A stretch of 64,000 bases of DNA from Haliovirga abyssi (GTDB lineage Bacteria; Fusobacteriota; Fusobacteriia; Fusobacteriales; Haliovirgaceae), in NCBI RefSeq assembly GCF_030295325.1, contig NZ_AP027059.1, positions 434,001 through 498,000 of the forward strand, written 5' to 3'. How positions within the stretch are numbered: position 1 is the stretch's first letter; every line of letters starts with the position of its first letter. Made by a program: the position numbers and the translations under genes. The notes below the pieces were generated by a model. That model worked only from the letters and a program-made list of their open reading frames with translations, had not been told where the DNA came from and made no database searches. Shown one piece after another: positions 24,895 to 32,683 of the stretch.

Positions 24895-24926
24895 AAAAAC
24901 GTTTGCAAAAAAGAGGAGGCGTAAAT

Positions 24927-25316
24927 ATGAATATAGAACATATAGCTATTTGGACTAATGATATTGAGAGGTTACGTAGTTTTTACATTAAATATTTTAA
25001 TGCTAAGTCAAATAAAAAATATTATAATCCTAAAAAAAAGTTTGAATCTTATTTTTTAACATTTTCATCAGGAGCAAGACTTGAAATAATGCAAACAACA
25101 AATATTCAAGAAAAACCAAATGATATTAATATAAAATATACAGGATTAATTCATATGGCATTTTCAGTTGGAAGCGAAGATTTAGTGATTAAATTGACAG
25201 ATAAATTAAGTAAAGATGGATATGAAGTTATTAGTGAGCCTAGGAAAACGGGAGATGGATATTTTGAAAGTTGTATTTTAGATCCTGATAAAAATGAAAT
25301 AGAAATTACAGAATAA
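24927..25316 (+). CDS. VOC/glyoxalase-family protein
   Basis: A 129-residue single vicinal-oxygen-chelate domain made of two beta-alpha-beta-beta-beta modules: IEHIAIWTNDIERLRSFYIKYF at the start, LEIMQT mid-way, GLIHMAFSV opening the second module and a final DPDKNEIEITE. The metal-site residues H4, the mid Glu in RLEIMQ, H72 region and the final Glu are kept, so a metal-dependent lyase (glyoxalase I-like) or lactoylglutathione-like activity is plausible. The start is ATG 24927 with agaggaggcg; the frame is open to 24903 but without support. Substrate unknown. Confidence 0.8.
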   Translation: MNIEHIAIWTNDIERLRSFYIKYFNAKSNKKYYNPKKKFESYFLTFSSGARLEIMQTTNIQEKPNDINIKYTGLIHMAFSVGSEDLVIKLTDKLSKDGYEVISEPRKTGDGYFESCILDPDKNEIEITE

Positions 25317-25436: not shown

Positions 25437-25465
25437 TTGACAAAAAAAGTAAAATGCTTTAAACT
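25437..25465 (+). promoter_or_regulatory. Promoter of the exporter leader
   Basis: TTGACA (25437-25442), exactly 17 bases, TAAACT (25460-25465). It would start a transcript near 25472 that covers the leader peptide and the terminator at 25690. The 120 bases between the VOC gene and this promoter hold nothing recognisable. Confidence 0.65.
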
Positions 25466-25537
25466 AACATAATATATAATTAATTGAGAAAAATATATGT
25501 TATAGAATTATAAAAAACATAGGAGGTGAATTAGAAA

Positions 25538-25627
25538 ATGAAATACGTAAGAGTAAATAAAATTATAAAAAGAATAATATTTATGTATTTAATTTCTAAA
25601 GCCTCAAGTGAAAAAATAATAATCTGA
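25538..25627 (+). CDS. 29-residue leader peptide upstream of the ABC exporter
   Basis: ATG 25538 follows a perfect aggaggtga ribosome site (25521-25529), the best in the window, and encodes 29 residues, basic at the start and hydrophobic (RIIFMYLI), before TGA. It is too short for standard gene calling. Between its stop and the ABC genes come a small hairpin (25635-25654) and a terminator. This matches ribosome-mediated attenuation as known for bmrB-bmrCD of Bacillus subtilis, where stalling on a leader peptide by ribosome-targeting drugs prevents termination. A secreted cationic peptide exported by the transporter is the less likely alternative. Confidence 0.65.
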   Translation: MKYVRVNKIIKRIIFMYLISKASSEKIII

Positions 25628-25634
25628 TTAGGAA

Positions 25635-25654
25635 TAACTATATTTATATAGTTA
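25635..25654 (+). promoter_or_regulatory. Hairpin between leader peptide and terminator
   Basis: TAACTATAT (25635-25643) is perfectly complementary to 25646-25654. It starts 8 bases after the leader stop codon, where a stalled ribosome could affect it. Confidence 0.45.
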
Positions 25655-25689
25655 CTAAGATTTTCAAAAAATTCATTAGAGCTTAATGT

Positions 25690-25721
25690 GGCAGTAGAGA
25701 TTATATCTACTGTCTTTTTTT
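25690..25721 (+). terminator. Attenuator terminator ahead of the ABC exporter
   Basis: A stem CAGTAGAGAT with ATCTACTG (one G-U type wobble region), followed by a run of seven T. It precedes the exporter genes by 215 bases, with no gene end to terminate other than the leader peptide. Confidence 0.7.
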
Positions 25722-25936
25722 ATACTTTTTTTTGAAAATAAGTGTATATATTTTATTTGTGTAAACTATAAATTTAACTCAAAAAAGAAAGGGGTGTCTA
25801 AAATGTAGCACTATTATTTGTAAAGGATCTAAATATATTGTATTGCAGGCAACTTGAATAGAAATAGAAATAAAAAATCAAATTGGCAAAGAGTAGATAT
25901 TAGAAATAAAAATAAAAACAATGGAGTTGGTACACG
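25722..25936 (+). other. Exporter 5' leader after the attenuator
   Basis: 215 bases with no gene. It contains a strong ribosome site (aaaggggtg, 25788-25796) followed by ATG-TAG (25803-25808), a start codon immediately followed by a stop. No second promoter is clear. The start of the first ABC gene has only a weak site (ggag, 25924-25927). Confidence 0.4.
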
Positions 25937-27775
25937 ATGAAAGGGATAAAATTAATATATAAATATACAAAAGGGAATAGGAAACTTTACATTTTATCAA
26001 TAATTGCAGTAATTATGGCAACTGTAGTTTCTTTTTTATCACCTGTTATTATAAAGTTTACAATTGATTATATAATAGGTGATCAGTCTTTTGAAATTAA
26101 TAATGTGATAAATAAATTTATTGGATTTTTTGGAGATAGAGATTTTTTATCAAAAAAAATATGGATAATGGGAATAATCATAATTGTTATAGCTGTAGCT
26201 GAAGGAGGTTTTAATTATTTAAAAGGAAAATGGTCAGCAATGGCTTCAGAAAATATTGCAAAGAATTTAAGAGAAAAACTTTATGAAAAGTTACAATATA
26301 TGTATTTTGATTATTATACAAATGCAAAAACTGGAGATCTAGTGCAAAGATGTACTTCTGATGTTGAAACTGTAAAGACATTTTTTTCGATGCAGTTAGT
26401 AGAAGTTGGAAGAACTATATTTTTAGTAGTGGTTGCCTTATCTTTTATGCTTTCGTTAAGTATAAAAATGACATTAGCTGCAATGGTTCTTATACCTGCA
26501 ATACTTATTTTTTCATTATACTTTCATATGAAAATACAGAAAGTATTTTTGGAAACAGATGAGGCTGAAGGAGAAATGTCTGCAGGATTACAAGAAAATC
26601 TTACAGGTGTGAGAGTTGTAAGAGCATTTGCAAGAGAAAAATATGAGATGGAGAGATTTGATGAAAAAAATTTAAATTTTAGAGATCTTGTATATAAACT
26701 CTTAAAAACTATAGCAATATTTGAGTCAAGAGTCGATTTTTTAAGTATAATACAGATAGGGATAGTTACAGTATATGGAACGTATCTTACTGTAAAGGGT
26801 GAAATATCGCTTGGAACTTTAGTGCTGTTTTTATCTTATGAAAGAATGCTTTTGTGGCCTATAAGAATGTTTGGAAGAATATTAGCAGATATGGGAAAAG
26901 CATTTGTATCTGCCGAAAGGATAGAAGAAATATTGAATGAAGATAGCGAACAAGGAGAAAAAGATGGAATAAAGCCTGAAATAAAGGGAAATATATCATT
27001 TGAAAATATATTTTTTGAGTATATAGAGGGAAAAGAGGTATTAAATAATATTTCATTAAATATAAAGAAAGGTCAGACTGTAGCTATATTAGGTGCAACA
27101 GGTTCAGGAAAAACTTCTCTTGTAAATTTATTAACAAAATTTTATGATTATAAAAGTGGTTCAATAAAAATAGATGATACTGAATTGAATAAAATAGATA
27201 AAAGATGGATAAGAGAAAATATAAGTATAGTTTTGCAAGAACCATTTATGTTTTCAAAATCAATAAAAGATAATTTATATCTTGCAAATAAACATACTAG
27301 CGAATATGAAATATATGATGCAGCAAAAATAGCGACTATACATGACGTTATAAATTCATTTTCAGAAGGATATGAAACAGTATTGGGTGAAAAGGGAGTA
27401 AATTTATCAGGAGGGCAAAAACAAAGGCTTTCTATAGCACGTGCACTTTTAAAGAAAAGTCCAATACTTATATTTGATGATTCTTTAAGTGCTGTTGATA
27501 CAGAAACAGACAGAGAAATAAGAAAAGCTTTAAATGATAGGAAACACAAGGCTACAACAATAATAATTGCTCATAGAATGACGACTATTGCAGGAGCAGA
27601 TGTTATAGTGGTTTTGGATAAAGGTAAAATAGTGCAACAAGGAACACATAAGGAATTAATTAATCAAAATGGTATTTATAAAAGGATTTGGAATATACAA
27701 AATGAATTGAAAGATGATATAAATGAAGAAAGTGTATTTGAAGAGGATGTAGAAAATGTCGAAGTTTCAATATAA
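25937..27775 (+). CDS. ABC exporter subunit A (heterodimeric multidrug type, degenerate ATP site)
   Basis: A 612-residue half transporter: six membrane helices (about 15-330) and a nucleotide-binding domain (about 350-590). Walker A is GATGSGKTS and the signature is LSGGQKQR. Walker B is LIFDDSLSAVD, in which the catalytic Glu is Asp, as in the first subunit of heterodimeric exporters (BmrC, TM287). The H-loop IIAHRM is present. The partner gene follows 24 bases downstream and has the opposite defect, so the pair forms one canonical and one degenerate ATP site. Likely role is export of drugs or lipophilic toxins; substrate not readable. Confidence 0.9.
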   Translation: MKGIKLIYKYTKGNRKLYILSIIAVIMATVVSFLSPVIIKFTIDYIIGDQSFEINNVINKFIGFFGDRDFLSKKIWIMGIIIIVIAVAEGGFNYLKGKWSAMASENIAKNLREKLYEKLQYMYFDYYTNAKTGDLVQRCTSDVETVKTFFSMQLVEVGRTIFLVVVALSFMLSLSIKMTLAAMVLIPAILIFSLYFHMKIQKVFLETDEAEGEMSAGLQENLTGVRVVRAFAREKYEMERFDEKNLNFRDLVYKLLKTIAIFESRVDFLSIIQIGIVTVYGTYLTVKGEISLGTLVLFLSYERMLLWPIRMFGRILADMGKAFVSAERIEEILNEDSEQGEKDGIKPEIKGNISFENIFFEYIEGKEVLNNISLNIKKGQTVAILGATGSGKTSLVNLLTKFYDYKSGSIKIDDTELNKIDKRWIRENISIVLQEPFMFSKSIKDNLYLANKHTSEYEIYDAAKIATIHDVINSFSEGYETVLGEKGVNLSGGQKQRLSIARALLKKSPILIFDDSLSAVDTETDREIRKALNDRKHKATTIIIAHRMTTIAGADVIVVLDKGKIVQQGTHKELINQNGIYKRIWNIQNELKDDINEESVFEEDVENVEVSI

Positions 27776-27799: not shown

Positions 27800-29626
27800 A
27801 TGACAGTATTAAATGAAGAAGAGTTTAATGAAAAAATAGATTTTGGAATATGGAAAAAAATTCTTGAATTTGCAAAACCTTATAGAAAACATATGATTTT
27901 ATTGGCAGTTGTAATGATAATAGTGGGAGCACAAGATGTCGCTATACCTCTTATGACGAAATATGCAATAGATCATTTTATAAATGGAAAAACTACATCA
28001 GGACTATATTTTTATCTTGGTGTATATATTTTACTAGCTATATCTCAAGCTTTTCATGTACGGATGCTTATAGTACTTGCTGGAAAAATAGATTCAGGGA
28101 CATGTTATCAGATAAGAAAAGCTGGTTTTAATAGGCTTCAAGAGCTGTCTTTTACATATTATGATAAAACGGCTGTGGGATGGATGATGGCAAGGCTTAC
28201 TTCTGACGTTCAAAAGCTTGGAGATATGATAGCTTGGGGAATGGTTGATATAGTGTGGGGATTTACAGTTATGATAGGAATTGCAGGTGTAATGGTTGTC
28301 CTTAACTGGAAACTTGCAATATTTGCTCTTTCGGCAATTCCTGCACTTTTGTTTATAAGCAAATATTTTCAAAATAAAATACTTGGAAGCTACAGAGAAG
28401 TAAGAAAGTTAAATTCAAAAATAACAAGTTCATTTAATGAAGGGATAAGTGGAGCAAAAACTACAAAAGCTCTTGCGTGTGAGCCTAAGAATATAAATGA
28501 ATTTAAAAATCAAACTGGAGAAATGTATTCTGCTTCTGTAAGGGCAGCAATTTTTTCATCGTTATATCTTCCTATAGTTATAAGTATTGGAAGTATTGGG
28601 ACAGCACTTGTATTATGGAAAGGTGGGAATGCAGTATCAGCAGGAGCTATAACATTTGGGACTTTAACTGCTTTTTTAGCATATACAATACAATTTTTTG
28701 ATCCATTACGTGAAATCGCAAGAGTTATTTCTGAATTTCAATCAGCACAAGCAGCAGCAGAAAGAGTGATTTCTCTTGTAAAAACAGAGCCTGATATAGT
28801 TGATAATGCAGAAGTAATAGAAAAATATGGTACCTCTAATAATCCTAAAAAAGAAAATTGGGAAGAGATAGAAGGAGAAATTGAATTTGAAAATGTATCT
28901 TTTGCTTATAAAAAAGGTGAACAGGTGTTAAAAAATTTCAATCTAAAAGTTAAAAAAGGAGAAAAAATTGCAATTGTAGGTGAAACAGGGTCAGGAAAAT
29001 CTACCATAGTAAATCTTATATGTAGATTTTATGAGCCGAATGAAGGAAGAATAATTATTGATGGAAAAGATTATAAAGATAGATCTCTTGGATGGCTTCA
29101 TTCAAGATTAGGATATGTTTTGCAGTCACCACATCTTTTTAGTGGGACAATAATGGAAAATATAAGATATGGGAAACTTGAAGCTAGCGATGAAGAGATT
29201 ATAGAAGCTGCAAAACTTGCAAAAGCAGATGAATTTATAGAAAAGATGGAAAATGGATATAATACAGAAGTTGGAGAAGGTGGAAGCAGGTTATCTACAG
29301 GAGAAAAACAGCTTATATCTTTTGCAAGAGCAATTTTAGCAGATCCTAAAATATTTGTATTAGATGAAGCTACATCTTCAGTGGATACAGAAACAGAAAA
29401 GAAAATACAAGAAGCTACAGAAATGATACTTGAAAAACGGACAAGTTTTATAATTGCACATAGGTTATCAACTATAAAAAATGCAGATAGAATATTGGTA
29501 ATAGACAATGGAAAAATGATAGAGGAAGGTTCACATCATGAGCTTATATTAAAAAAAGGACATTATTTTAAACTCTATTCAAATCAATTTATAGAAGAAA
29601 ATGAAGTGCAATACTTGAGCAATTAG
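27800..29626 (+). CDS. ABC exporter subunit B (heterodimeric multidrug type, catalytic Walker B)
   Basis: A 608-residue half transporter with six helices (about 30-320) and a nucleotide-binding domain (about 355-595). Walker A is GETGSGKST and Walker B is FVLDEATSSVD with the catalytic Glu kept. The signature is altered to LSTGEKQL instead of LSGGQ, the classic asymmetry of the second subunit. The intact ATP site combines this Walker A/B with the LSGGQ of subunit A. It ends at a terminator and so closes the leader-A-B operon. Confidence 0.9.
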   Translation: MTVLNEEEFNEKIDFGIWKKILEFAKPYRKHMILLAVVMIIVGAQDVAIPLMTKYAIDHFINGKTTSGLYFYLGVYILLAISQAFHVRMLIVLAGKIDSGTCYQIRKAGFNRLQELSFTYYDKTAVGWMMARLTSDVQKLGDMIAWGMVDIVWGFTVMIGIAGVMVVLNWKLAIFALSAIPALLFISKYFQNKILGSYREVRKLNSKITSSFNEGISGAKTTKALACEPKNINEFKNQTGEMYSASVRAAIFSSLYLPIVISIGSIGTALVLWKGGNAVSAGAITFGTLTAFLAYTIQFFDPLREIARVISEFQSAQAAAERVISLVKTEPDIVDNAEVIEKYGTSNNPKKENWEEIEGEIEFENVSFAYKKGEQVLKNFNLKVKKGEKIAIVGETGSGKSTIVNLICRFYEPNEGRIIIDGKDYKDRSLGWLHSRLGYVLQSPHLFSGTIMENIRYGKLEASDEEIIEAAKLAKADEFIEKMENGYNTEVGEGGSRLSTGEKQLISFARAILADPKIFVLDEATSSVDTETEKKIQEATEMILEKRTSFIIAHRLSTIKNADRILVIDNGKMIEEGSHHELILKKGHYFKLYSNQFIEENEVQYLSN

Positions 29627-29767: not shown

Positions 29768-30625
29768 ATGAAAAAGAGTTTAGTAGTAATAATGTTAGGA
29801 ATATTTATTTCGGTAGTAGCAACAGCAGGTGTATTTGATTTCTTATTTAAAAAAGGTAATTCAAAAAAGAGAATAGAAGTTACGTTAAGAGGTTCTACAA
29901 CAGTATTACCAATAGGTATGGCAGTAACAGAACAATTTTCTAAAGAGAATAAAAGGTCTAGAGTATCAGTAAGTGGTGGAGGATCTTCTACTGGAATAAA
30001 AGCTTTATTAGATGGAAGTGTTGATATTGCAGAGGCATCAAGAGCGATGAAATCTAAAGAATATGATATAGCAAAATCTAAAGGGATGAAAATAAAAGAG
30101 ATAGTGGTAGCTTTTGATGGTATTGCAATAGTTGTAAATCCTTCAAACGGTGTTACTGCACTTACAAAAGAACAAGTAAAAAAAATATATAAAGGTGAGA
30201 TAACTAACTGGAAAGAGGTTGGTGGACCTGATAAAGCAATAGTTGCAGTAGGAAGAGATACAGCATCTGGGACAAGAGAAGCTTTTGATCATTTAGTTAT
30301 GGATAAAGAGGAACCTGCAACAGGAGTTTTAGAATTAGCTTCAAATAATGCAGTTTTAGATGATGTAGAAAATACAAAAGGTGGAATTGGATATATAGGG
30401 CTAGGTTATGTAAATCATCAAGTAAAAGCATTAACTATAAATGGAATAAAACCTACATTTGATACTGTAAAAAATAAAACGTATCCTGTATCTAGAAATC
30501 TTTACTGGTATACAACTGAGGATAAAATAAATAATGTAAATGGAGTTAAACAATTAATAGATTATTTGCTTGGAGAAAAAGGACAAGCTATAGTAAAATC
30601 TCAAGGATTTGTACCTGTAAAATAG
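29768..30625 (+). CDS. pstS: Phosphate ABC transporter substrate-binding protein
   Basis: A 285-residue periplasmic phosphate-binding protein with a signal peptide (1-20, ending TAG). The phosphate ligands are visible as GSTTVLP (about 43-49), GGGSSTGIKALLDG (about 69-82), the DIAEASR strand and the RDTASGTREAFD loop (about 159-170). It has its own Pho box and a strong terminator, so it can be made in excess over the membrane subunits, as is usual. The start ATG follows aaggagg. Confidence 0.95.
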   Translation: MKKSLVVIMLGIFISVVATAGVFDFLFKKGNSKKRIEVTLRGSTTVLPIGMAVTEQFSKENKRSRVSVSGGGSSTGIKALLDGSVDIAEASRAMKSKEYDIAKSKGMKIKEIVVAFDGIAIVVNPSNGVTALTKEQVKKIYKGEITNWKEVGGPDKAIVAVGRDTASGTREAFDHLVMDKEEPATGVLELASNNAVLDDVENTKGGIGYIGLGYVNHQVKALTINGIKPTFDTVKNKTYPVSRNLYWYTTEDKINNVNGVKQLIDYLLGEKGQAIVKSQGFVPVK

Positions 30626-30660
30626 TGAGTTTAAAAATTAAATAATTAATTTTTAAATAT

Positions 30661-30765
30661 TTAGGAACGTTTAAAAAATAAGTTTCTTATATTTTGTTAT
30701 AAAAACGCTTAAATCGTTGCGTATTTTAAAACAAAATGATAAGGTTATTTTTAAGCCGTTCCTTA
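30661..30765 (+). repeat. Palindromic MITE-like element, full length, orientation A
   Basis: A 105-base reference copy with TTA on both sides; ends GGAACGTTTAAAAAATAA and TTATTTTTAAGCCGTTCC. The two ~48-base arms are largely complementary (TATTTTGTTATAAAAACGC against TGCGTATTTTAAAACAAAAT). It lies between the pstS stop and its terminator. Confidence 0.9.
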
Positions 30766-30799
30766 GCTAGAAGATGATAATATCTTCTAGCTTTTTTTA
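30765..30799 (+). terminator. Terminator of pstS
   Basis: AGCTAGAAGAT (30765-30775) pairs perfectly with 30782-30792, loop of 6, then seven T. The palindromic element is inserted immediately before it. Confidence 0.9.
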
Positions 30800-30811
30800 T
30801 ATAAATCATTT

Positions 30812-30850
30812 TTTACATTAAATTTACATAAAATTAATATTAAATTAACA
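30812..30850 (+). promoter_or_regulatory. Pho box of pstC (four direct repeats, 11-bp period)
   Basis: TTTACA, TTTACA, TTAATA and TTAACA start at 30812, 30823, 30834 and 30845. Spacing to the following -10 is identical to the pstS promoter (9 bases between). Confidence 0.8.
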
Positions 30851-30856
30851 GATTTA

Positions 30857-30865
30857 TGGTATGAT
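30857..30865 (+). promoter_or_regulatory. Extended -10 of the pstC operon promoter
   Basis: TGGTATGAT, 10 bases after the start of the gap following the fourth Pho repeat; no separate -35. Confidence 0.7.
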
Positions 30866-30904
30866 GATATTATAAATTATAGTTTGTTATTTTAATATAA
30901 TAGT

Positions 30905-30927
30905 AAAGTATAAATTTGTACAGAAAA
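30905..30927 (+). repeat. Dispersed AAAGTATAAA leader motif, copy 3
   Basis: Identical to 4083-4105 at 21 of 23 positions and also preceded by TTTAATAT. It lies in the leader, directly before the pstC ribosome site. Confidence 0.45.
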
Positions 30928-30945
30928 TATAGAAAGGGTGAAATA

Positions 30946-31842
30946 ATGGGAAAAAAGAGAAAAATAATTAACAGTACCATGAGTAATGGAGTAAAATTAA
31001 TTGCCATATTTAATATTGTGATAGTATTTATGATATTTTTATTTATATTTTTTAATAGTTTAGATTTTTTTATGAAATATCCAATAAATAAATTTTTATT
31101 TGGTGAAGAATGGAGAATTAAAATAGGTAACGATCTAAAAAGTATTTTTGGGATGTTACCACTTTTAAAAGGAAGTTTAATAGTAACTTTTATAGCAATT
31201 ATAATAAGTGTACCGCTTAGTTTTATAACTACAATATATATTGCAGAATTTGCAGGGAAAAAAGAACGTGAAATTATGAAAATATTAATAGAAACAATGG
31301 CAGCAATTCCATCAGTTGTACTTGGATTTATAGGTTTGAAAATATTATCAACTCCTATAAAAGATATATTTAATCTAGATTCTGGAAAAACAGCTCTAAC
31401 TGGTGGGATAATTTTAGCATTTATGGCAATGCCTACAATAATAAGTATATCTGATGATGCTTTAAAATCTTTAGATAAAAGTTATAAAGATGCTTCATTA
31501 GCTTTGGGAGCTACCAAATTACAAACTACATTTAAAGTACTTGTTCCAGCAGCATTTTCAGGAATATTTGCCTCAATGATGTTAGGTTTTGGGAGAGTGA
31601 TTGGAGAGACAATGACAGTTTTAATGGTAACTGGAAATGCACCTATATTTAAAAGTAGCCCACTTACATCTGTTAGGACAATGACAGCCACTATAGCAGC
31701 AGAAATGGGAGAATCTGTAAATGGAAGTTTGCATCAGAAATCTCTATTTGCAATAGGATTAATATTGTTTATTTTGACATTTTTAGTTAATATAATTGCA
31801 GATCATTTTGTGGAAAAATCAAGAAAAAAGATGAGGGAGTAA
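30946..31842 (+). CDS. pstC: Phosphate ABC transporter permease PstC
   Basis: A 298-residue inner-membrane subunit with about six helices (first at 18-40) and the ABC-permease EAA loop around DASLALGATKLQTTFKVLVP (about 192-211). The frame is open from 30916, but ATG 30946 has the ribosome site agaaagggtg and gives a normal basic N-terminus before the first helix. It pairs with PstA to form the channel fed by PstS. Distance to pstA is 4 bases. Confidence 0.95.
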   Translation: MGKKRKIINSTMSNGVKLIAIFNIVIVFMIFLFIFFNSLDFFMKYPINKFLFGEEWRIKIGNDLKSIFGMLPLLKGSLIVTFIAIIISVPLSFITTIYIAEFAGKKEREIMKILIETMAAIPSVVLGFIGLKILSTPIKDIFNLDSGKTALTGGIILAFMAMPTIISISDDALKSLDKSYKDASLALGATKLQTTFKVLVPAAFSGIFASMMLGFGRVIGETMTVLMVTGNAPIFKSSPLTSVRTMTATIAAEMGESVNGSLHQKSLFAIGLILFILTFLVNIIADHFVEKSRKKMRE

Positions 31843-31846
31843 GAAT

Positions 31847-32683
31847 ATGAATAAAAGAAAAGAGTTGGTTATAACTTGGGGAATAAAAATTATAGCTATA
31901 ATGTCACTGTTACCAATATTTGGGATATTATTGTATTTAATAATAAAAGGATTGCCTGCGATAAATTGGAAATTTCTTACATCTATGCCTGAAAATAGTG
32001 GAAGAGCTGGAGGTATATTAGCACCTATAATTGGAACACTATGGTTGACTGTTGGGACTATAATAGTTTCAGTACCATTTGGAGTTTTAACAGCTATATT
32101 TTTAGTAGAATATTCAAAAGATAACTGGTTGAAAAGAACTATAAATTTGATGATAATAAATTTAGCAGGAATACCAAGTGTTGTATATGGATTATTTGGA
32201 TTGTCACTGTTTGTTGTTTGGATGGGATTTGGAGTATCTATTATATCTGGTTCATTAACTTTAGGAATAATGTCTTTGCCAGTGATTATTACATCTACAA
32301 AAGAAGCTTTATTGGCTGTTCCAAATAATCTGAGAGAAGCCTCTTTAGCATTAGGAGCAACTAAATGGGAAACAGTTTGGAAGGTGGTATTGCCAGCATC
32401 GATGTATGGAATAGTTACAGGAGTTATTTTAAGTATAGGGAGAGCTGCAGGGGAAACAGCACCAATAATATTTACAGTTGCAACTGCTTATCAAAATTAT
32501 TTACCAGAAACAGTGTTAGATAAAACAATGGCGTTGCCATTTCATCTATTTGTTATATCAACAGAGGTAAATAATATGCCTATGAAAAATATGTATGGGA
32601 CTGCGTTTATACTTGTTTTTATTACTGTTGGATTTAATTTGGTTGGGACGTTTATTAGGAGTAGGTTTAAGAAATCTAGGTAG
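31847..32683 (+). CDS. pstA: Phosphate ABC transporter permease PstA
   Basis: A 278-residue inner-membrane subunit with about six helices and the EAA loop EASLALGATKWETVWKVVLP (about 164-183), parallel to that in PstC. Length is typical. The ribosome site gaggg lies at the end of pstC. Unusually, the operon is then interrupted by 420 bases of non-coding repeat DNA before pstB. Confidence 0.95.
   Translation: MNKRKELVITWGIKIIAIMSLLPIFGILLYLIIKGLPAINWKFLTSMPENSGRAGGILAPIIGTLWLTVGTIIVSVPFGVLTAIFLVEYSKDNWLKRTINLMIINLAGIPSVVYGLFGLSLFVVWMGFGVSIISGSLTLGIMSLPVIITSTKEALLAVPNNLREASLALGATKWETVWKVVLPASMYGIVTGVILSIGRAAGETAPIIFTVATAYQNYLPETVLDKTMALPFHLFVISTEVNNMPMKNMYGTAFILVFITVGFNLVGTFIRSRFKKSR

Follow-up and report, generated by a model that had tools for sequence, protein, structure and literature searches.

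Transcription of the ABC exporter operon described here, from Haliovirga abyssi, is very probably controlled by ribosome-mediated attenuation with the four segments of the classical design, in which the Shine-Dalgarno sequence of a short leader open reading frame (ORF) would itself serve as the first segment. The locus lies in a stretch of 64,000 nucleotides (the window, to which all coordinates refer) of a genome of 2.73 Mb, which is the sole member of its family in its order among the genomes compared. The evidence consists of the parts themselves, two mutually exclusive pairings of one leader segment, the recurrence of the layout ahead of orthologous exporters, the co-variation of the pairing partners across these orthologs, and a stall window predicted by folding. 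The parts of the locus are as follows.

25437-25465, + strand: putative promoter TTGACA-17-TAAACT (10/12 matches, weak -10).
25521-25537, + strand: segment A, the leader Shine-Dalgarno sequence AGGAGGTGA (25521-25529) with its spacer, forming the 5' arm of the anti-antiterminator (from the sequence and the A:B pairing).
25538-25627, + strand: leader ORF with ATG start, 29 codons (29 aa), translated as MKYVRVNKIIKRIIFMYLISKASSEKIII.
25590-25606, + strand: segment B, within the leader ORF (about codons 18-23), which pairs with A or with C, never with both (from duplex energies and shuffles).
25690-25703, + strand: segment C, the 5' arm of the terminator, which contributes UAGAGAUUA and GGC to the antiterminator pairing with B (from the hairpin and the pairing).
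25706-25721, + strand: segment D, the 3' arm of the terminator with the U-run (from a hairpin search).
25788-25810, + strand: AAAGGGGTGTCTAAAATGTAG, a candidate Shine-Dalgarno sequence (AAAGGGGTG) followed by a start-stop mini-ORF (ATG TAG), between the terminator and the exporter.
25937-27775, + strand: ABC exporter subunit 1 (612 aa), with a degenerate Walker B motif (IFDD) and a canonical signature (LSGGQ), from sequence motifs and profile matches.
27800-29626, + strand: ABC exporter subunit 2 (608 aa), with a canonical Walker B motif (VLDE) and a non-canonical signature (LSTGE), from sequence motifs and profile matches.

The elements to which the first-pass annotation had drawn attention (a promoter-like site, a ribosome site, a 29-codon ORF, a hairpin, and a T-run terminator) are all present. 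The -10 element of the promoter is weak, and since promoter-like sites in the region do not exceed the shuffle level (8 found versus 11.5 expected), the promoter match alone is weak evidence. The terminator hairpin (25690-25714; 9 bp, a loop of 7, then TTTTTTT) is the only terminator found in the region, where 0.1 would be expected by shuffles. It starts 62 nt past the leader stop and lies 222 nt ahead of the exporter. An additional AT-rich hairpin (AATAACTATATTTATATAGTTACT, 25630-25660) is located between the leader stop and the terminator, nested inside the predicted antiterminator, and is possibly a pause site. Upstream of the locus, a glyoxalase/Fos-like fold protein is encoded at 24903-25316 (weak matches only; best NCBIfam match YaeR, E 3e-9, far below the cut-off), and the exporter is followed by phosphate-uptake-like genes at 29768-32683 (PstS-, PstC-, and PstA-like by sequence).

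The core of the switch is the dual complementarity of segment B. The duplex energies are -12.2 kcal/mol for A:B and -13.1 kcal/mol for B:C; taken singly, pairings as good occur in shuffles at frequencies of 0.037 and 0.016, respectively, and both as good on one and the same segment in 0/5000 dinucleotide shuffles. Folding of the leader region for alternative structures had been proposed as a check, and it yielded them. The minimum-energy fold of 25515-25722 combines A:B with the terminator C:D (-40.4 kcal/mol, z -3.38, matched by 0/200 shuffles), with 25523-25527 paired to 25601-25605 and 25531-25537 to 25593-25599. Constrained folding of the free leader RNA gives a probability of 1.00 for A:B, and masking of the leader Shine-Dalgarno sequence switches the fold to B:C, which excludes the terminator C:D in the window. 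When a ribosome footprint was moved along the leader, the probability of B:C stayed at 0.99-1.00 while the P-site was on codons 1-5 and fell to about 0.5 for codons 6-7; codon 8 gave 0.06, and no position from codon 9 onwards exceeded 0.20. At the level of constrained folding only, it is thus the position of the ribosome that selects between A:B and B:C.

These structures suggest a mechanism that works like a classical 1-2-3-4 attenuator in which the Shine-Dalgarno sequence takes the place of segment 1. If the leader is untranslated, A would pair with B, the terminator would form, and the exporter would be off. If a ribosome traverses the whole leader, B would be covered and freed only near the stop codon, so that the terminator would again form and the exporter would stay off. 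If a ribosome is stalled with its P-site at about codons 1-5, A would be covered, B would pair with C, the terminator would not form, and transcription would be expected to read through into the exporter genes. The predicted natural inducers are drugs that act on the ribosome and arrest it at initiation or early in elongation; an early stall of this kind is what many antibiotics would be expected to produce. The RNA pairing would be decisive in such a switch and the sequence of the leader peptide of little weight.

Both subunits of the downstream exporter belong to the type IV ABC exporters (MsbA/Sav1866 superfamily); among the best matches listed, they score well below all curated NCBIfam cut-offs. 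The first-pass annotation had noted the asymmetric ATP sites, and this holds: the combination of IFDD with LSGGQ in subunit 1 and of VLDE with LSTGE in subunit 2 is, judged by its motifs, typical of heterodimers in which one of the ATP sites is degenerate. FDD is kept in 36/36 orthologs of the subunit 1 tree, and the 3 outgroup exporters in which the motif could be located have LDE. In phmmer comparisons, BmrC and BmrD scored 281 and 326 bits, below the scores of TM287/288, Sav1866, and TmrAB; by these scores the pump appears not specially close to BmrCD. Orthologs of the exporter were found in 73/391 sampled Clostridia genomes with identities of up to 56%, and inside the phylum in only 7 genomes of 2 genera with identities of 46-50%. 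A search of genome contigs with subunit 1 as query gave no useful orthologs. In the subunit 1 tree, the window's protein sits on a long branch in an unresolved clostridial group, outside the supported clade of the other fusobacterial orthologs. Transfer of the exporter from Clostridia would be the natural, if tentative, reading. The exporter clade is apparently uncharacterized.

The first-pass annotation had suggested that the attenuator might be an independent case of drug-responsive control. It is not an isolated one: the same layout occurs ahead of clostridial orthologs and of the ortholog of one other fusobacterium. An automatic leader and terminator detector was applied to 42 high-scoring clostridial orthologs with at least 290 nt of upstream DNA; a leader together with a terminator was found ahead of 24/42, and a terminator within 300 nt (at most) ahead of 37/42. 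Among lower-identity orthologs the combination was found in 1/20, and with the same detector it was found ahead of 0/37 fusobacterial paralogs. In the clostridial layout, a strong Shine-Dalgarno sequence is followed by a leader ORF (21-43 codons long in the 24 orthologs), by a single terminator or a tandem pair, and then by the exporter. In the upstream regions L063-L090, most clostridial orthologs are preceded by two tandem terminators whose stems are nearly identical. The commonest clostridial form reads AGGAGGTCGTG ... ATG ... CACGACCT (in the leader) ... stop ... GCCATAGGT-loop-ACCTATGGC-TTTTT. The window differs from this consensus throughout, as do some clostridial loci, and its leader has no visible sequence in common with clostridial leaders (no GTCGTG/CACGACC, no CCATAGG). 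It has the topology of the clostridial set, that is, the pairings A:B, B:C, and C:D, a B segment inside the leader ORF, and an orthologous exporter downstream. The ortholog of the other fusobacterium (G080, locus L036) is preceded by the leader MKKLFLTLGAIEIAGVFTK, a terminator, and a 3-codon mini-ORF; a clear B segment is absent there. The attenuator is missing ahead of some orthologs (the g21 fusobacteria, L081, L083, and L086); those g21 orthologs whose sequences were inspected have a plain promoter beside the gene. Four loci of one fusobacterial genus (L035, L037, L038, and L039) have no attenuator and carry the promoter-like sequence TTGAAGGGRTNAAAAAACATAGTATACT directly ahead of the gene, which may be read as control having been lost or replaced.

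The clostridial A and B elements were also searched for as a motif (AGGAGGTCGTG-N50-80-CACGRCCT) over the 391 Clostridia genomes. Ten matches were obtained. Seven of them precede an ortholog of the exporter, one is truncated by the end of its contig (L137), one resembles coding sequence (L144), and one is an orphan attenuator. For one of the seven (L139), the protein search had not called an ortholog in that genome. The orphan (match L141; locus L145, G310:C5, reverse strand) comprises the leader MKKLILLSNQTATKKISARPMTKNI and two terminators; the 2.4 kb that follow contain no long ORF. Neither the window nor any of 16 ortholog loci matched an Rfam 15 covariance model at the gathering score, and a search of the H. 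abyssi genome for further copies of the leader gave only short AT-rich matches.

In the clostridial leaders, segment B has two complementary partners, the Shine-Dalgarno region of its own leader (A) and the terminator's 5' arm (C). Compared with dinucleotide shuffles, the duplex energies of 24 loci have mean z values of -2.1 (B:C) and -2.3 (A with the leader), and A and C pick overlapping leader segments in nearly all loci. An alignment of 22 clostridial leaders made with MAFFT placed the B element wrongly, and alignment-free swap tests were used instead. When partners were swapped among 29 loci, the native pairings stood out with z values of -7.7 (B:C) and -6.8 (A:B; 0/5000 permutations each), being better than swapped ones by means of 3.4 and 2.7 kcal/mol, respectively, and the window's own partners ranked first for B:C and A:B alike. 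As the orthologs are related sequences, they are less independent than these statistics imply. When B:C pairs were counted at a fixed register, in blocks cut by hand, no excess relative to swapped partners was seen (816/2000); differences in register are taken to account for this null result, as the B:C excess did appear in the alignment-free test. The concerted changes can be followed in the sequences: GGTCGTG occurs with CACGACC, GGGTAA with TTACCC and CCATGGGTAATA (L088), and GCAGGCAAA with TTTGCCTGC (L111). In some clostridial loci, constrained folding favors B:C even in the free RNA. The leader peptides and frames vary between loci while the place of the leader, the Shine-Dalgarno sequence, and the terminator are kept. 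The reading frame of the B element itself varies (TGC ACG GCC TGT in L068, GCA CGA CCT in L064), and the occurrence of the same element in another frame in L068 indicates that the RNA is conserved and not an Arg-Pro peptide.

A real attenuator that responds to amino-acid or tRNA shortage, or to the general translation rate, rather than to drugs is unlikely. Any early stall would suffice to operate it, and the leader peptides are not conserved, both of which are compatible with such a signal; the leaders, however, have no run of a single amino acid in their first codons, and the regulated genes encode a pump of the multidrug-exporter type and not biosynthetic enzymes. A drug-specific arrest peptide was considered as well. 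The motif [RK]x[RK], known from macrolide arrest, occurs near the leader start in 15/31 loci versus 6.1 in whole-peptide shuffles, but in 12/30 versus 9.8 when only the first 15 residues are shuffled. The idea was rejected because the motif is not enriched once the N-terminal composition is allowed for; near the start of the window's leader it is absent. The MYLI string in that leader, which resembles the leader of MsrD (MYLIFM), was judged to be a chance likeness, the peptide being rich in these residues.

A second possibility is translational attenuation, in which translation of the leader would unmask the ribosome site of the exporter, perhaps via the mini-ORF at 25788-25810. This mini-ORF with its candidate Shine-Dalgarno sequence lies between the terminator and the exporter, and in L036 a 3-codon ORF (ATG ATA GTT TAA, with GAGGTGA) occupies the matching position; 9-codon ORFs are found at the matching place in L064 and L079. 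Against this stand the few orthologs in which such a mini-ORF occurs, the terminator, which would be left unexplained, and the Shine-Dalgarno sequence of the exporter, which the downstream fold leaves unpaired for the most part (about 0.65-0.74). As the sole control, translational attenuation is therefore very unlikely; it may act as a second layer on top of the transcription attenuator.

It is highly improbable that the 29-codon ORF stands alone as a small gene (for a small membrane protein or a toxin-like peptide) with its own terminator, the exporter being transcribed from its own downstream promoter. The peptide is basic and hydrophobic, a terminator follows the ORF, and 222 nt then separate it from the exporter, which speaks for such an arrangement. 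The first-pass annotation had named a separate strong promoter between 25722 and 25937 as one observation that would count against attenuation; promoter-like sites were looked for there on the + strand and none was found. The peptide sequence, moreover, is not conserved across loci, unlike its place, its Shine-Dalgarno sequence, and its terminator, and the dual complementarity of B would have no purpose. Least probable of all is a terminator without a switch, giving constitutive partial read-through at a low level as first shown for patAB: a lone terminator does lower expression (PMC4319486), but the conserved Shine-Dalgarno sequence and ORF and the co-variation of A:B and B:C would then be superfluous.

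In its predicted mechanism, the locus is closest to bmrB-bmrCD and vmlR of Bacillus subtilis. In the bmrB-bmrCD system, as at the present locus, the ABC exporter is a heterodimer in which one ATP site is degenerate, and it is preceded by a leader ORF, a terminator, an antiterminator, and a predicted anti-antiterminator; the system needs translation of the leader, and a stalled ribosome leads to read-through (PMC4191407). The parallel drawn by the first-pass annotation, attenuation of the exporter by a bmrB-like mechanism, is strongly supported by the computed A:B, B:C, and C:D pairings. It does not extend to the pumps, which by their phmmer scores do not appear to be close relatives, or to the terminator, which lies inside the leader coding region in bmrB (PMC4191407) and 62 nt past the leader stop in the window. 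The present family also differs from bmrB-bmrCD in that one arm of the anti-antiterminator is formed by the leader Shine-Dalgarno sequence. In vmlR, arrest at the initiation of a short upstream ORF (uORF) blocks the anti-antiterminator, and variants of the uORF still work (PMC9226507). The switch of anti-antiterminator, antiterminator, and terminator and the uncritical peptide sequence resemble the window, whereas the 3-codon uORF in a bulge, the single-stranded Shine-Dalgarno sequence, and the target (an ABC-F ribosome protection factor) do not (PMC9226507). With its arrest at initiation, vmlR is as good a model for the locus as bmrB-bmrCD.

Other systems share parts of the layout. The mef(E)/mel and erm(K) genes are also preceded by a leader peptide and a transcription terminator ahead of drug-resistance genes; they rely on the conserved arrest peptide MTxSMRLR (PMC4335068), which is absent from the window, where the peptide is free to vary. 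The patAB genes of Streptococcus pneumoniae encode a heterodimeric ABC multidrug exporter behind a terminator and a predicted antiterminator, and differ from the window in that a leader peptide is not reported (PMC4319486). In the sections considered here, the computational study of Naville and Gautheret (2010) presents ABC-leaders, premature terminators before ABC transporter genes that include a multidrug export operon of lactobacilli (PMC2965389); the same sections describe no clostridial leader with a triple pairing of Shine-Dalgarno sequence, leader, and terminator (PMC2965389). A search of the open-access literature returned no description of the present clostridial attenuator.

The attenuator arrangement is thus real, widespread in Clostridia, and apparently not described before. 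We lean, by a modest preference, towards a further proposal, namely that it represents an undescribed and widespread attenuator class, bound to one exporter lineage and reaching from Clostridia into Fusobacteriota, in which the Shine-Dalgarno sequence as first arm would sense arrest at early codons irrespective of the peptide and would thereby act as a general sensor of inhibitors of the start site and of early elongation. The analysis provides a rule by which such switches can be searched for, which is one complementarity common to a Shine-Dalgarno sequence, a leader segment, and a terminator arm. If the proposed mechanism is true, it would be a design by which attenuation senses drugs independently of the leader peptide, within a sharply bounded stall window (codons 1-5), and knowing which drugs induce the operon would give a clue to what the pumps of this exporter clade transport. 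Many gut and environmental Clostridia and some Fusobacteriota would then own an inducible multidrug-pump operon whose trigger is predictable from sequence.
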